A DNA stretch of 43,511 nucleotides, from NCBI GenBank assembly GCA_017501175.1, contig JAFVXK010000006.1, positions 1 to 43,511 of the forward strand, given 5' to 3'. Position numbers and translations under genes: made by a program. The notes under the pieces were generated by a model. It ran no database searches. It was not told the DNA's origin and saw nothing but the letters and a program-made list of their open reading frames with translations. The DNA is from Clostridia bacterium. Lineage in GTDB: Bacteria > Bacillota_A > Clostridia > Oscillospirales > CAG-272. Shown here piece by piece: positions 8,287 to 43,511 of the stretch (positions are counted from its first letter, which is position 1; each line of letters opens with the position of its first letter).

Positions 8287-8399
8287 CAAAGCGATAGCGA
8301 GTATTCGCTCAAGCAGGGAAAGCGTGGTGAAAATCCACCGCAACAGCCATTGCCGTAATGGAATCAGCCGTGTCCTAAGTCGGAAGGCCTGCCGCTTTG
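8287..8399 (+). ncRNA. Cobalamin riboswitch aptamer
   Basis: The RNA contains the conserved GGTGAAAATCC segment with its closing GTGG/CCAC helix, then the core GCAACAGCC...GCCGTAA, and near the 3' end a good B12 box (AGTCGGAAGGCCTGCC, 8378-8393). The outer helix closes with CAAAGCG (8287-8293) paired to CGCTTTG (8393-8399). It is a compact member of the class. The downstream lipoprotein and ECF S component make B12 uptake the controlled function. The proposed terminator is about 350 bases further on because two repeat elements follow the aptamer directly. Confidence 0.9.
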
Positions 8400-8539
8400 T
8401 TTTGGAACGTCATTTTGCGTAAGAACGAAAAGACAAAAGCCTTGTCTTTCCTATCGCCGTTTCCTCCCTCTCGACGTATGTAGATACGCCTTCGGGTCGG
8501 AAAGCGACGATTCTTCCTGCAAACTGACTGTCCCGAAAG
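8400..8539. mobile_element. MITE-like element, tandem copy 1
   Basis: First of two tandem 140-bp units, about 96% identical. It begins with GTTTTGGAACGTCA and ends with an imperfect inverted copy (complement CTTTCGGGACAGTCA). It has no coding capacity; the apparent minus-strand ORF across it shifts frame between copies. It is inserted exactly at the 3' edge of the riboswitch P1 helix. Confidence 0.7.
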
Positions 8540-8679
8540 TTTTGGAACGTCATTTTGCGTAAGAACGAAAAGACAAAAGCTTTGTCTTTCCTATCGCCGT
8601 TTCCTCCCTCTCGACGTATGTAGATACGCCTTCGGGTCGGAAAACGACGATTCTTCCTGCGAACTGACTGTCCCAAAAC
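8540..8679. mobile_element. MITE-like element, tandem copy 2
   Basis: Second 140-bp unit. Its ends, GTTTTGGAACGTCA at the left and the complement of GTTTTGGGACAGTCA at the right, form 14-15 bp terminal inverted repeats. The sequence just after it starts TTTGGAA again, as expected if that string is the duplicated target or shared junction. Confidence 0.7.
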
Positions 8680-37572: not shown

Positions 37573-37630
37573 TAGGCTACACCTCATCCGTCGCGTTCCG
37601 CGCCACCTTCTCCCGAGGGAGAAGGCTTTT
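37573..37630. repeat. Interspersed repeat, copy 1
   Basis: A 58-base unit starting TAGGCTACACCTCATCCGTC and ending in a GGAGAAGG-type hairpin. It recurs in direct orientation at 38262-38319 with only a few differences. The two copies flank the structured-RNA/51-codon element. Confidence 0.75.
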
Positions 37631-37680
37631 ACTTTAAGAGCGGCTTTTAATTAACTATAAAAACTTACTTGTCGCTCCTA

Positions 37681-37709
37681 TTGACAATTTAAGCAAATAG
37701 TGATATAAT
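37681..37709 (+). promoter_or_regulatory. Consensus promoter of the structured leader RNA
   Basis: TTGACA (37681-37686), 17 bases, TATAAT (37704-37709) with a TG extension: a perfect sigma-A promoter with no large ORF behind it. Confidence 0.9.
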
Positions 37710-37714
37710 TAACA

Positions 37715-37933
37715 CGCCCAACAAAATCGAATATATTGAATTAAGGTATTTTGCCATTTGGGGATATTATACCTTTTTTTCGCACATTCTACCTTTAGAA
37801 TTTGGTAAAAGCGCAGATTCCACGGGTAGAATGATTACGGTTATGCCTTAATTCTATTCGATTTTGTTGGGCGACAAATCGGAGTCTTGCGTTTTTCGGT
37901 GCGGTAGCTTCGGTTGCCGCACTTTTTGTTTTT
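37715..37933 (+). ncRNA. Predicted structured RNA ending in a UUCG-loop intrinsic terminator
   Basis: The transcript should start near 37716. CGCCCAACAAAATCGAATA (37715-37733) and a further nine bases pair with 37846-37873, giving 28 bp with one four-base bulge. Inside the loop CATTCTACC and GGTAGAATG form a nested stem. The RNA ends with a 10-bp stem capped by a C(UUCG)G tetraloop (37899-37922) and TTTTTGTTTTT. The roughly 220-base product fits no class I recognise. Unlike 6S RNA, its 5' end pairs to its middle, not its 3' end. Confidence 0.65.
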
Positions 37934-37959
37934 ATACAGATTTTTATGGGGAGTAAATT

Positions 37960-38115
37960 ATGGAAAATTCTAATAAAAATCCCGAGATAAGCGAGGAGAA
38001 AAGAAAGGAATACCTCGAGCTTTTCAAGCAAGCGCTATGCGAGGGTATATCCGCGAGATTTGATATGATAGCAAAAGAAGCAGAGAATATCGAATTACCA
38101 AATCCCTGCGATTAA
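37960..38115 (+). CDS. 51-residue acidic helical microprotein, left copy
   Basis: An ATG-started frame with a GGGGAG ribosome site eight bases upstream. The product is charged and predicted mainly helical (EEKRKEYLELFKQALCEGIS, ARFDMIAKEAENIELP). It lies 27 bases after the terminator of the structured RNA. An inverted copy at 43230-43385 keeps the frame and length and differs at five residues (Y18N, M36K, N43D, N48E, C50R), which supports real coding. No family is recognised. Confidence 0.65.
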   Translation: MENSNKNPEISEEKRKEYLELFKQALCEGISARFDMIAKEAENIELPNPCD

Positions 38116-38167
38116 ATCAAGAAAACTTCCCGTCTTCAAGATGCGTACGGCTAATGGTACGAGTGAT

Positions 38168-38191
38168 GCCCCGTGGATTTACCCACGGGGC
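38168..38191. terminator. Invariant GC hairpin at the end of the left element
   Basis: GCCCCGTGG pairs with CCACGGGGC across ATTTAC. The hairpin and the 17 bases after it (to 38208) are identical in the right copy. It resembles the end hairpins of IS200/IS605-type elements as well as a terminator. Confidence 0.65.
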
Positions 38192-38236
38192 GTGTTAAAT
38201 TTCAGGCTGTATTAGCGTAATAGAAATTTGTCGTAA

Positions 38237-38262
38237 GGGAGGCGTTTCGCCTCCCGTTTTTT
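38237..38262 (+). terminator. Intrinsic terminator
   Basis: GGGAGGCG pairs with CGCCTCCC across TTT, followed by GTTTTTT. It is downstream of the left microprotein gene. Confidence 0.8.
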
Positions 38263-38319
38263 AGGCTACACCTCATCCGTCGCGTCCCGCGCCACCTTCT
38301 CCTAGAGGAGAAGGCTTTT
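38262..38319. repeat. Interspersed repeat, copy 2
   Basis: Direct copy of the 37573-37630 unit. Here the outer TTAGGCT also has an inverted partner AGCCTAA at about 38332-38338, which may mark the full element. Confidence 0.72.
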
Positions 38320-38344
38320 TTCTCCCGGAGAGAGCCTAAAATGA

Positions 38345-43116: not shown

Positions 43117-43155
43117 GCCCGCACACCGCAAAAAAAAGAGCCTGAAATTTAACAC

Positions 43156-43179
43156 GCCCCGTGGGTAAATCCACGGGGC
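43156..43179. terminator. Invariant GC hairpin at the end of the right element
   Basis: Same hairpin as at 38168-38191, inverted. It lies 39 bases after the transporter ATPase stop and may also end that transcript. The element edge is at about 43139. Confidence 0.65.
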
Positions 43180-43229
43180 GTAGCTTATGCCATTAGCCGT
43201 CGCATCTTGAAGATGGGAATTTTCTTGAT

Positions 43230-43385
43230 TTAATCGCGGGGCTCGGGTAATTCGATATCCTCTGCTTCTTTTGCTATCTTATCAAATCTCGCGGATATAC
43301 CCTCGCATAGCGCTTGCTTGAAAAGTTCGAGGTTTTCCTTTCTTTTTTCCTCGCTTATCTCGGGATTTTTATTAGAATTTTCCAT
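43230..43385 (-). CDS. 51-residue acidic helical microprotein, right copy
   Basis: Inverted paralogue of the frame at 37960-38115: same start, same length, five residue changes and three silent changes. GAGGAG precedes the ATG. Upstream (on its strand) is the identical UUCG-loop terminator hairpin. No family recognised. Confidence 0.65.
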   Translation of the reverse strand: MENSNKNPEISEEKRKENLELFKQALCEGISARFDKIAKEAEDIELPEPRD

Positions 43386-43423
43386 AATTTACTCCTCATA
43401 AAAAATCTGTATAAAAACAAAAA

Positions 43424-43447
43424 GTGCGGCAACCGAAGCTACCGCAC
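43424..43447 (-). terminator. UUCG-loop terminator upstream of the right microprotein
   Basis: Identical 10-bp stem and C(UUCG)G loop as at 37899-37922, followed on the minus strand by TTTTTGTTTTT. The RNA it would end starts outside the window or near its edge. Confidence 0.75.
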
Positions 43448-43511
43448 CGAAAAACGCAAACCCCGATTGTCGCGAAACAAACTTTAACAGAAACGGGGAT
43501 TTTCAATCTCA

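Follow-up and report, generated by a model that had tools for sequence, protein, structure and literature searches.

Organization of the locus

A stretch of 43,511 nucleotides from a Clostridia bacterium (contig JAFVXK010000006.1), referred to here as the window, contains a promoter, a structured RNA of ~213 nt (37715–37927), an intrinsic terminator, and a 51-codon open reading frame (ORF), in that order (Table 1). The promoter agrees with the consensus at every position, as a sequence-only reading of the window had claimed, and the RNA, put at ~220 bases in that reading, is predicted to fold far more stably than shuffled sequence: the fold of 37716–37940 was calculated at −88.4 kcal/mol, compared with −48.8 ± 4.5 kcal/mol for 200 shuffles (z −8.85), none of which reached the native stability. 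The 28-bp long-range stem described in the same reading was about right, amounting to 19 bp plus 12 bp in the fold, and the nested hairpin, the UUCG terminator, and the ORF with its ribosome-binding site are all present. A second copy had also been reported within the window; its inverted repeat arms were found, and its RNA part was matched by a covariance model, R1.

Table 1. Features of the element and of its second copy in the window
Feature	Position	Strand	Basis or remark
Promoter: −35 TTGACA (37681–37686), 17-nt spacer, extended −10 TGATATAAT (TATAAT, 37704–37709)	37681–37709	+	consensus match, 12/12
P1 closing stem, 5′ strand	37715–37733	+	fold; partner 37855–37873 (19 bp)
P1 closing stem, 3′ strand	37855–37873	+	fold and covariation
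P1b, 5′ strand	37738–37749	+	fold; partner 37843–37854 (12 bp)
P2, weak hairpin, then U-tract	37760–37780	+	covariation
P3 stem-loop with the conserved a:b hairpin as its cap (strand a, 37797–37804)	37785–37833	+	fold
Strand b, AAAAGCGCAGAUUCC; partner of strand a (cap hairpin) or strand c (pseudoknot)	37807–37821	+	
Linker strand c, AAUCGGAGUCUUGCGUUUUU; partner of b (proposed OFF) or of the terminator 5′ arm (proposed ON)	37877–37896	+	
Intrinsic terminator, UUCG loop	37898–37927	+	
Terminator 5′ arm and loop; antiterminator partner of strand c	37898–37912	+	
Ribosome-binding site of the 51-codon ORF, Shine–Dalgarno (SD)-like TGGGGAG	37947–37953	+	sequence
51-codon ORF, downstream gene of this copy	37960–38115	+	codons 37960–38112, stop 38113–38115
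Second RNA copy, 5′ part lost at the window end	43419–43511	−	R1, 85.2 bits, E 1.3e-16; not fully independent, because the matched 3′ part is largely that of copy 1, itself part of the source of R1
51-codon ORF of copy 2, 90% identical	43230–43385	−	

Distribution of the RNA family

Searches starting from the ORF were of little use: a protein search with the 51-residue product gave one related database cluster only, and no relative was found in viral contigs or, with two peptide patterns only, in genome contigs. DNA searches of plasmids and phages gave no match to the element, and two exact patterns were likewise absent from viral contigs. Entry to the relatives was instead provided by the neighboring ABC-F gene, which led to three Clostridia metagenome-assembled genomes (MAGs) from roe deer with 50–52% identity in the ABC-F protein. 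When these three genomes were searched at the DNA level, one of them, MAG RGIG4259 (G002, reached through locus L002), gave several matches, which covered the RNA and not the ORF, and five aligned copies—that of the window and four from RGIG4259—were the source of R1.

In the large searches with R1, in which six candidates were scored per genome, matches were obtained in 139 of 394 genomes from the order of RGIG4259 (E ≤ 0.01) and in 91 of 391 genomes drawn from the class (E ≤ 0.001), compared with 1 of 398 drawn from the phylum, the one being the centre genome itself. The covariance-model check proposed in the sequence-only reading has been run, with homologues found at the order-level frequency just given and with covarying stems. 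A fuller search of ten genomes picked for having matches gave 2–13 copies per genome (E ≤ 1e-4). A search by DNA alone gave matches (E ≤ 1e-10) in 41 of 146 genomes of the family, and none of the listed matches extends more than 4 bases into the ORF. Among the 80 named loci L001–L080, R1 matched none at E ≤ 1.

The RNA occurs in two forms, found side by side in some genomes: a long form of 194–236 nt (95 full copies) and a short form of 137–184 nt (61 copies). The first 20 short loci, inspected by eye, contain the promoter, P1, strand b, linker c, and terminator as in the long form. Long-form copies within one genome have a median identity of 58–63% (four genomes, 20 copies), and one pair, in genome G389, is 95% identical.

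Position between a promoter and a gene start

A −10 box lies 5–9 nt upstream of P1 in 155 of 156 copies (at exactly 5 nt in 136), compared with 58.7 for letter-shuffled upstream sequences, and a −35 box is also present in 130 of the 156 (shuffled, 10.0). On the other side, 121 of 152 usable copies—81 of 93 long (a set including the partial window copy) and 40 of 59 short ones—carry an SD sequence and start codon 10–100 nt past the terminator, where an ORF of at least 50 codons was needed and 5 of 157 copies, cut too short, were left out. The corresponding control, looking outward on the 5′ side, gave 6 of 35 (long) and 3 of 16 (short), and shuffled sequence gave 2%. The median distance from terminator to start is 25 nt in the long form and 20 nt in the short form. 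The remaining 31 of 152 usable copies are without an adjacent start codon, which argues for some copies being orphans or working in another way; in some of these, by eye, another hairpin or RNA copy comes next. Tandem RNA copies, each with its own promoter, precede a single gene at L086 (1508–1981) and at L234, an arrangement like that of tandem riboswitches.

Nested structure and covariation

RNAalifold, applied to a plain MAFFT alignment of the five sequences, predicted 46 pairs, 16 of them with double changes. In the larger long-form alignment A6 (96 rows, being 95 full copies and one partial), 34 nested pairs are paired in 90.2% of cells, compared with at most 50.8% when slid, and 31 of the 34 show double changes; these counts are biased toward the structure, since A6 was aligned by R1, which includes P1, P2, and the cap, and they are partly fitted, since a column-pair analysis of A6 itself was used to select the columns of P1b and P3. 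None of 500 shuffles scored as high, the shuffle controls leaving the relatedness among copies in place.

Helix by helix, P1 is paired in 98.1% of cells, with both-side changes in 11 of 13 pairs; such changes were also seen in 6 of 6 counted pairs of P1b and in 3 of 3 of P2, which is paired in 84.9% of long-form cells. The cap hairpin a:b is 93.1% paired, and P3, where the alignment is imperfect, 71.9%; the loop of the P3 cap is conserved in sequence. Pairs of P1, P1b, P3, and the terminator are top-ranked in the column-pair analysis, along with some subtype-linked columns. Linker column 302 (A or U) tracks the P1 pair 9–290 (A-U or U-A), a linkage that may reflect either a base triple or a mark of subtype.

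Alternative pairings of the linker

Strand c can be paired in two ways. With the interior, A-rich strand b it forms a predicted pseudoknot of 14 pairs, of which 98.6% of cells are paired, compared with at most 58.9% when slid, and double changes occur in 6 of the 14; in the window copy, b has an A-to-G change and c the matching U-to-C change. With the arm and loop of the terminator it forms a predicted antiterminator, paired in 93.0% of cells compared with at most 52.8% when slid, with double changes in 7 of 13 pairs. The alignment was not fitted to either helix, because the structure of R1 contains neither. Two features expected of a riboswitch are seen in the comparison: a conserved, covarying structured domain in the 5′ leader, and folds that would be mutually exclusive, b:c and c:terminator sharing strand c and both covarying.

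The linker–terminator pairing was first indicated by the fold of 18 short forms aligned with plain MAFFT; no counts were taken from this alignment, in which the coordinates of one row (L200) were wrong and from which L207 and L209, two of the 20 fetched, were excluded. The pairing was then examined by swapping partners between copies, after identical linker–arm pairs had been removed (95 to 90 long, 61 to 57 short). Strand c pairs better with its own terminator arm than with swapped ones in both the long form (−10.80 versus −9.47 kcal/mol, n = 90, z −6.9) and the short form (−13.24 versus −10.75 kcal/mol, n = 57, z −7.9), with 0 of 2000 permutations as low in either case. Mirroring the arm gave a smaller effect that is not null (z −2.7 for long and −3.6 for short), and hence part of the c:terminator signal is relatedness. 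For the interior with c, the swap test was weak in the long form (z −2.4, 12 of 2000 permutations as low) and gave z −6.9 in the short form, compared with mirror controls of z −0.3 and −0.5, respectively. The automatic terminator caller was wrong for at least L138, L181, L205, L242, L244, and L257, rows that were kept in the swap tests.

The CUUCGG loop is absent in 29 of 156 copies. Linkers matching the altered terminators are found in L183, L185, L239, L241, L242, L244, L245, and L248 (the terminators of L242 and L244, both mis-set by the script, were read by eye from the sequence), and in four of these the two sides have diverged together: L242 (linker GAGGGAAC, terminator GUUCCCUC), L239 (ACAUGAGUU and GGCUUAUGU), L245 (GCAAAAGU and GCUUUUGC), and L183 (CAAUAGGAG and CUCUUAUUG). 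The unusual terminator loops of L111, L114, L153, L161, and L166 are mismatched to their own linkers.

Downstream genes and the 51-codon ORF

The genes following the RNA are unrelated to one another and include those for lipoproteins, BspA-type repeat proteins, zinc ribbons, and small proteins. Among 82 downstream proteins of the long form, for which 25 of 54 Pfam families were listed, BspA-type LRR occurs seven times, MazE/AbrB-like four times, and Zn_Ribbon_1 three times, with many single occurrences, among them Peptidase_M23, CHAP, SLH, trypsin-like, AMP-binding, and one TnpV. Simple pattern tests, applied to proteins of at least 100 residues after long and short forms, detected a signal- or membrane-like N-terminus in 51 of 87 downstream proteins and 14 of 78 other genes from the fetched stretches (Fisher p 9e-8); a lipobox-like motif was likewise detected in 21 of 87 and 5 of 78 (p 0.002). 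The putative regulon is thus weighted to exported proteins, yet does not constitute one pathway.

The product of the 51-codon ORF itself gave no family above the cut-off. A profile comparison aligned it with the N-terminal half of small-protein family A9 (probability 90%, E 1.6e-6; the copy 2 product pairwise at E 2e-7), which follows the same RNA family in several other genomes, and, as judged from these alignments, it is a shortened relative of this uncharacterized family. At E ≤ 0.01 the database contains 152 relatives of A9, and no Pfam domain was found in the 120 of them listed. The predicted structure of A9 is poor (mean pLDDT 63.8, pTM 0.25). Of 197 genomes from the order to which G161 (itself from the order draw) belongs, 5 gave A9 matches, and three of the seven matches carry internal stops. 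The small basic A9 protein as a general regulator was rejected on these numbers, and its rarity indicates that the 51-codon protein is one downstream gene among others rather than the RNA's general partner.

Small Cys-rich proteins (GIEL.PG...C.GNG...CCCDEC) recur after the RNA in several genomes, at L238, L240, L243, L123, L149, L182, and L192; those of the long-form loci have no family name among the listed Pfam and NCBIfam hits.

Proposed mechanism and rival explanations

The promoter, the structure, both alternative pairings, and gene adjacency are each supported by sequence comparison, and from them we infer that the pairings would switch in the cell, that a ligand would be the signal, and of what kind it might be. 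The RNA family is probably a cis-acting transcription attenuator of the riboswitch type. RNA polymerase would start at the built-in promoter and transcribe a compact domain closed by P1, after which linker strand c could pair back to interior strand b to form a pseudoknot. With c taken up by b, the terminator would fold and the gene would be silent; with b kept in its own cap hairpin (a:b), c would be free for the rising arm and loop of the terminator, and the resulting antiterminator would allow read-through into the adjacent gene. The balance would be set by a signal, for which a small molecule or second messenger binding to the domain made up of P1, P2, P3, and the pseudoknot is the most likely candidate, and the several copies per genome would place unrelated, often exported, proteins under one signal. 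We lean toward a default OFF state, because in the window b:c is a stronger duplex than the cap (−19.5 versus −6.3 kcal/mol). On its own, the antiterminator has a median stability of −11.9 kcal/mol (−11.1 in the window), whereas the terminator reaches a median of −15.8 (−17.0 in the window), so antitermination would have to win kinetically. Against this reading, the downstream genes share no pathway, whereas those of most metabolite riboswitches do.

That same diversity, weighted to export, would suit a global factor better than a metabolite, and, together with the conserved sequence of the P3 cap loop, it lends something to a leader acting via a protein—an RNA-binding antiterminator or a polymerase-modifying factor, for which put/EAR RNA and LoaP leaders, with processive antitermination across several terminators downstream, are models—rather than via a small-molecule ligand. 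Such a leader, differing from the riboswitch-type attenuator in its signal alone, is nevertheless rather unlikely: the set of terminator, antiterminator, and anti-antiterminator would be needless for a polymerase-modifying RNA, and A9, often encoded downstream, occurs in too few genomes (5 of 197) to be the general factor. A free-standing small RNA acting in trans, for which read-through into the next gene would be incidental, would explain why nearly every copy of the RNA has a promoter at one end and a terminator at the other and why 31 of 152 usable copies have no adjacent start codon. It is improbable, however, given that in 121 of the 152 an SD sequence and start follow the terminator, mostly too near for another promoter, and that the linker covaries with the terminator arm, as expected of an antiterminator.

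Several copies per genome, the inverted arms of P1, and the opposite orientation of the two window copies would also be compatible with a mobile, MITE-like repeat whose inverted ends merely resemble an RNA stem. Same-genome long copies are, however, only 58–63% identical (median; four genomes, 20 copies), the promoter lies outside the arms at a fixed spacing, and most usable copies keep one orientation relative to the gene that follows, making this explanation very improbable. The sequence-only reading had offered either a type III toxin–antitoxin locus or an attenuated leader, of which the latter has held up, with homologues, covarying stems, and start codons soon after the terminator (121 of 152), and the former has not. 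ToxI-like candidates upstream of ToxN are reported in PMC8040213, and the element does share with type III loci the order of promoter, RNA, terminator, and small ORF. The RNA is, however, without tandem repeats: no array was found in 37640–38330, and 37700–37940 has just two weak two-copy repeats (20–21 nt, 75–76%). Neither the window ORF nor the 25 of 54 Pfam families listed for the 82 downstream proteins includes a ToxN/CptN/TenpN-like endoribonuclease. The downstream gene, moreover, differs between loci, and since these genes are unrelated the RNA would be a cis-acting leader; a type III locus is hardly credible.

Relation to known riboswitches and leaders

At the gathering score, Rfam 15 found only two tRNAs in the window and only tRNAs in 40 relative loci, and known Rfam families, including the T-box, were rejected accordingly. 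Lax scans of three members gave matches all far below gathering, the best at E 0.0054 and 25.5 bits, where 83 would be needed.

In its putative mechanism the element works like a terminating riboswitch, and its membership in that class is likewise putative. Terminating riboswitches with a pseudoknot aptamer include preQ1, SAM-II, and similar types, with which it shares a closed domain, a pseudoknot capturing the downstream linker, and a terminator/antiterminator platform. Unlike these, it has long (194–236 nt) and short (137–184 nt) forms and no Rfam match, carries its own promoter at a fixed spacing, and precedes genes that are often for exported or uncharacterized proteins rather than of one pathway. 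The c-di-GMP riboswitches also occur several to a genome, preceding genes for surface and secreted proteins, and in both respects the element resembles them; its architecture differs, and no Rfam hit at the gathering score other than tRNAs was obtained in the window or the 40 relative loci. T-box leaders are 5′ leader attenuators with a terminator and antiterminator, as is proposed here, but the same loci gave no T-box match, and no amino-acid genes are among the 25 of 54 downstream Pfam families listed.

On comparative grounds, then, the element is a conserved family of RNA control elements of uncultured gut Clostridia, not in Rfam 15. No description of it was found in the titles and abstracts searched or in passages of PMC8040213 and PMC11109978; an earlier listing as a nameless candidate in supplementary material is possible. 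The chances are about even for a broader reading, in which the family would be a widespread riboswitch class outside Rfam, built on a pseudoknot and possibly a U.A-U triple helix, sensing a global signal, a second messenger for example, and governing an exported-protein regulon via self-contained cassettes of promoter, aptamer, and terminator that could be placed before any gene. The triple helix is suggested as a possibility by the A-tract of strand b lying between two U-tracts. An as yet undescribed family of leaders numbering hundreds of copies, with several to a genome and a complete putative switching platform, would be uncommon. Were its ligand found, many uncultured gut Clostridia would have a regulon of exported proteins readable from sequence, and the cassette form, with promoter and switch in one, would offer ready-made test reporters.

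Second copy and surrounding repeats

Copy 2 is inverted relative to copy 1, with arms of 94%, 100%, and 88% complementarity spanning 43134–43459. The two copies are near-identical from the linker before the terminator onward (37887 and 43459), with terminator and ORF 94–100% alike, and differ in the upstream part of the RNA, as if the putative sensing part had been swapped and the terminator and ORF kept. The codon changes between the two ORFs are three synonymous and five non-synonymous.

Other repeats lie around the element. A hairpin, CCCCGTGGATTTACCCACGGGG, is found 3′ of the ORF in both copies (38169–38190, and 43157–43178 on the reverse strand). A terminator-like hairpin, GGGAGGCGTTTCGCCTCCC, at 38229–38259 has, with its flanks, many relatives of 93–100% identity in genome G001. 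A 58-nt interspersed palindromic repeat occurs on both sides of the element (37573–37630 and 38262–38319; 91% identical), and relatives of its second copy are numerous in G001 and present in RGIG4259. Farther away, at 8399–8678, a 140-nt stretch is duplicated head to tail with 97% identity.
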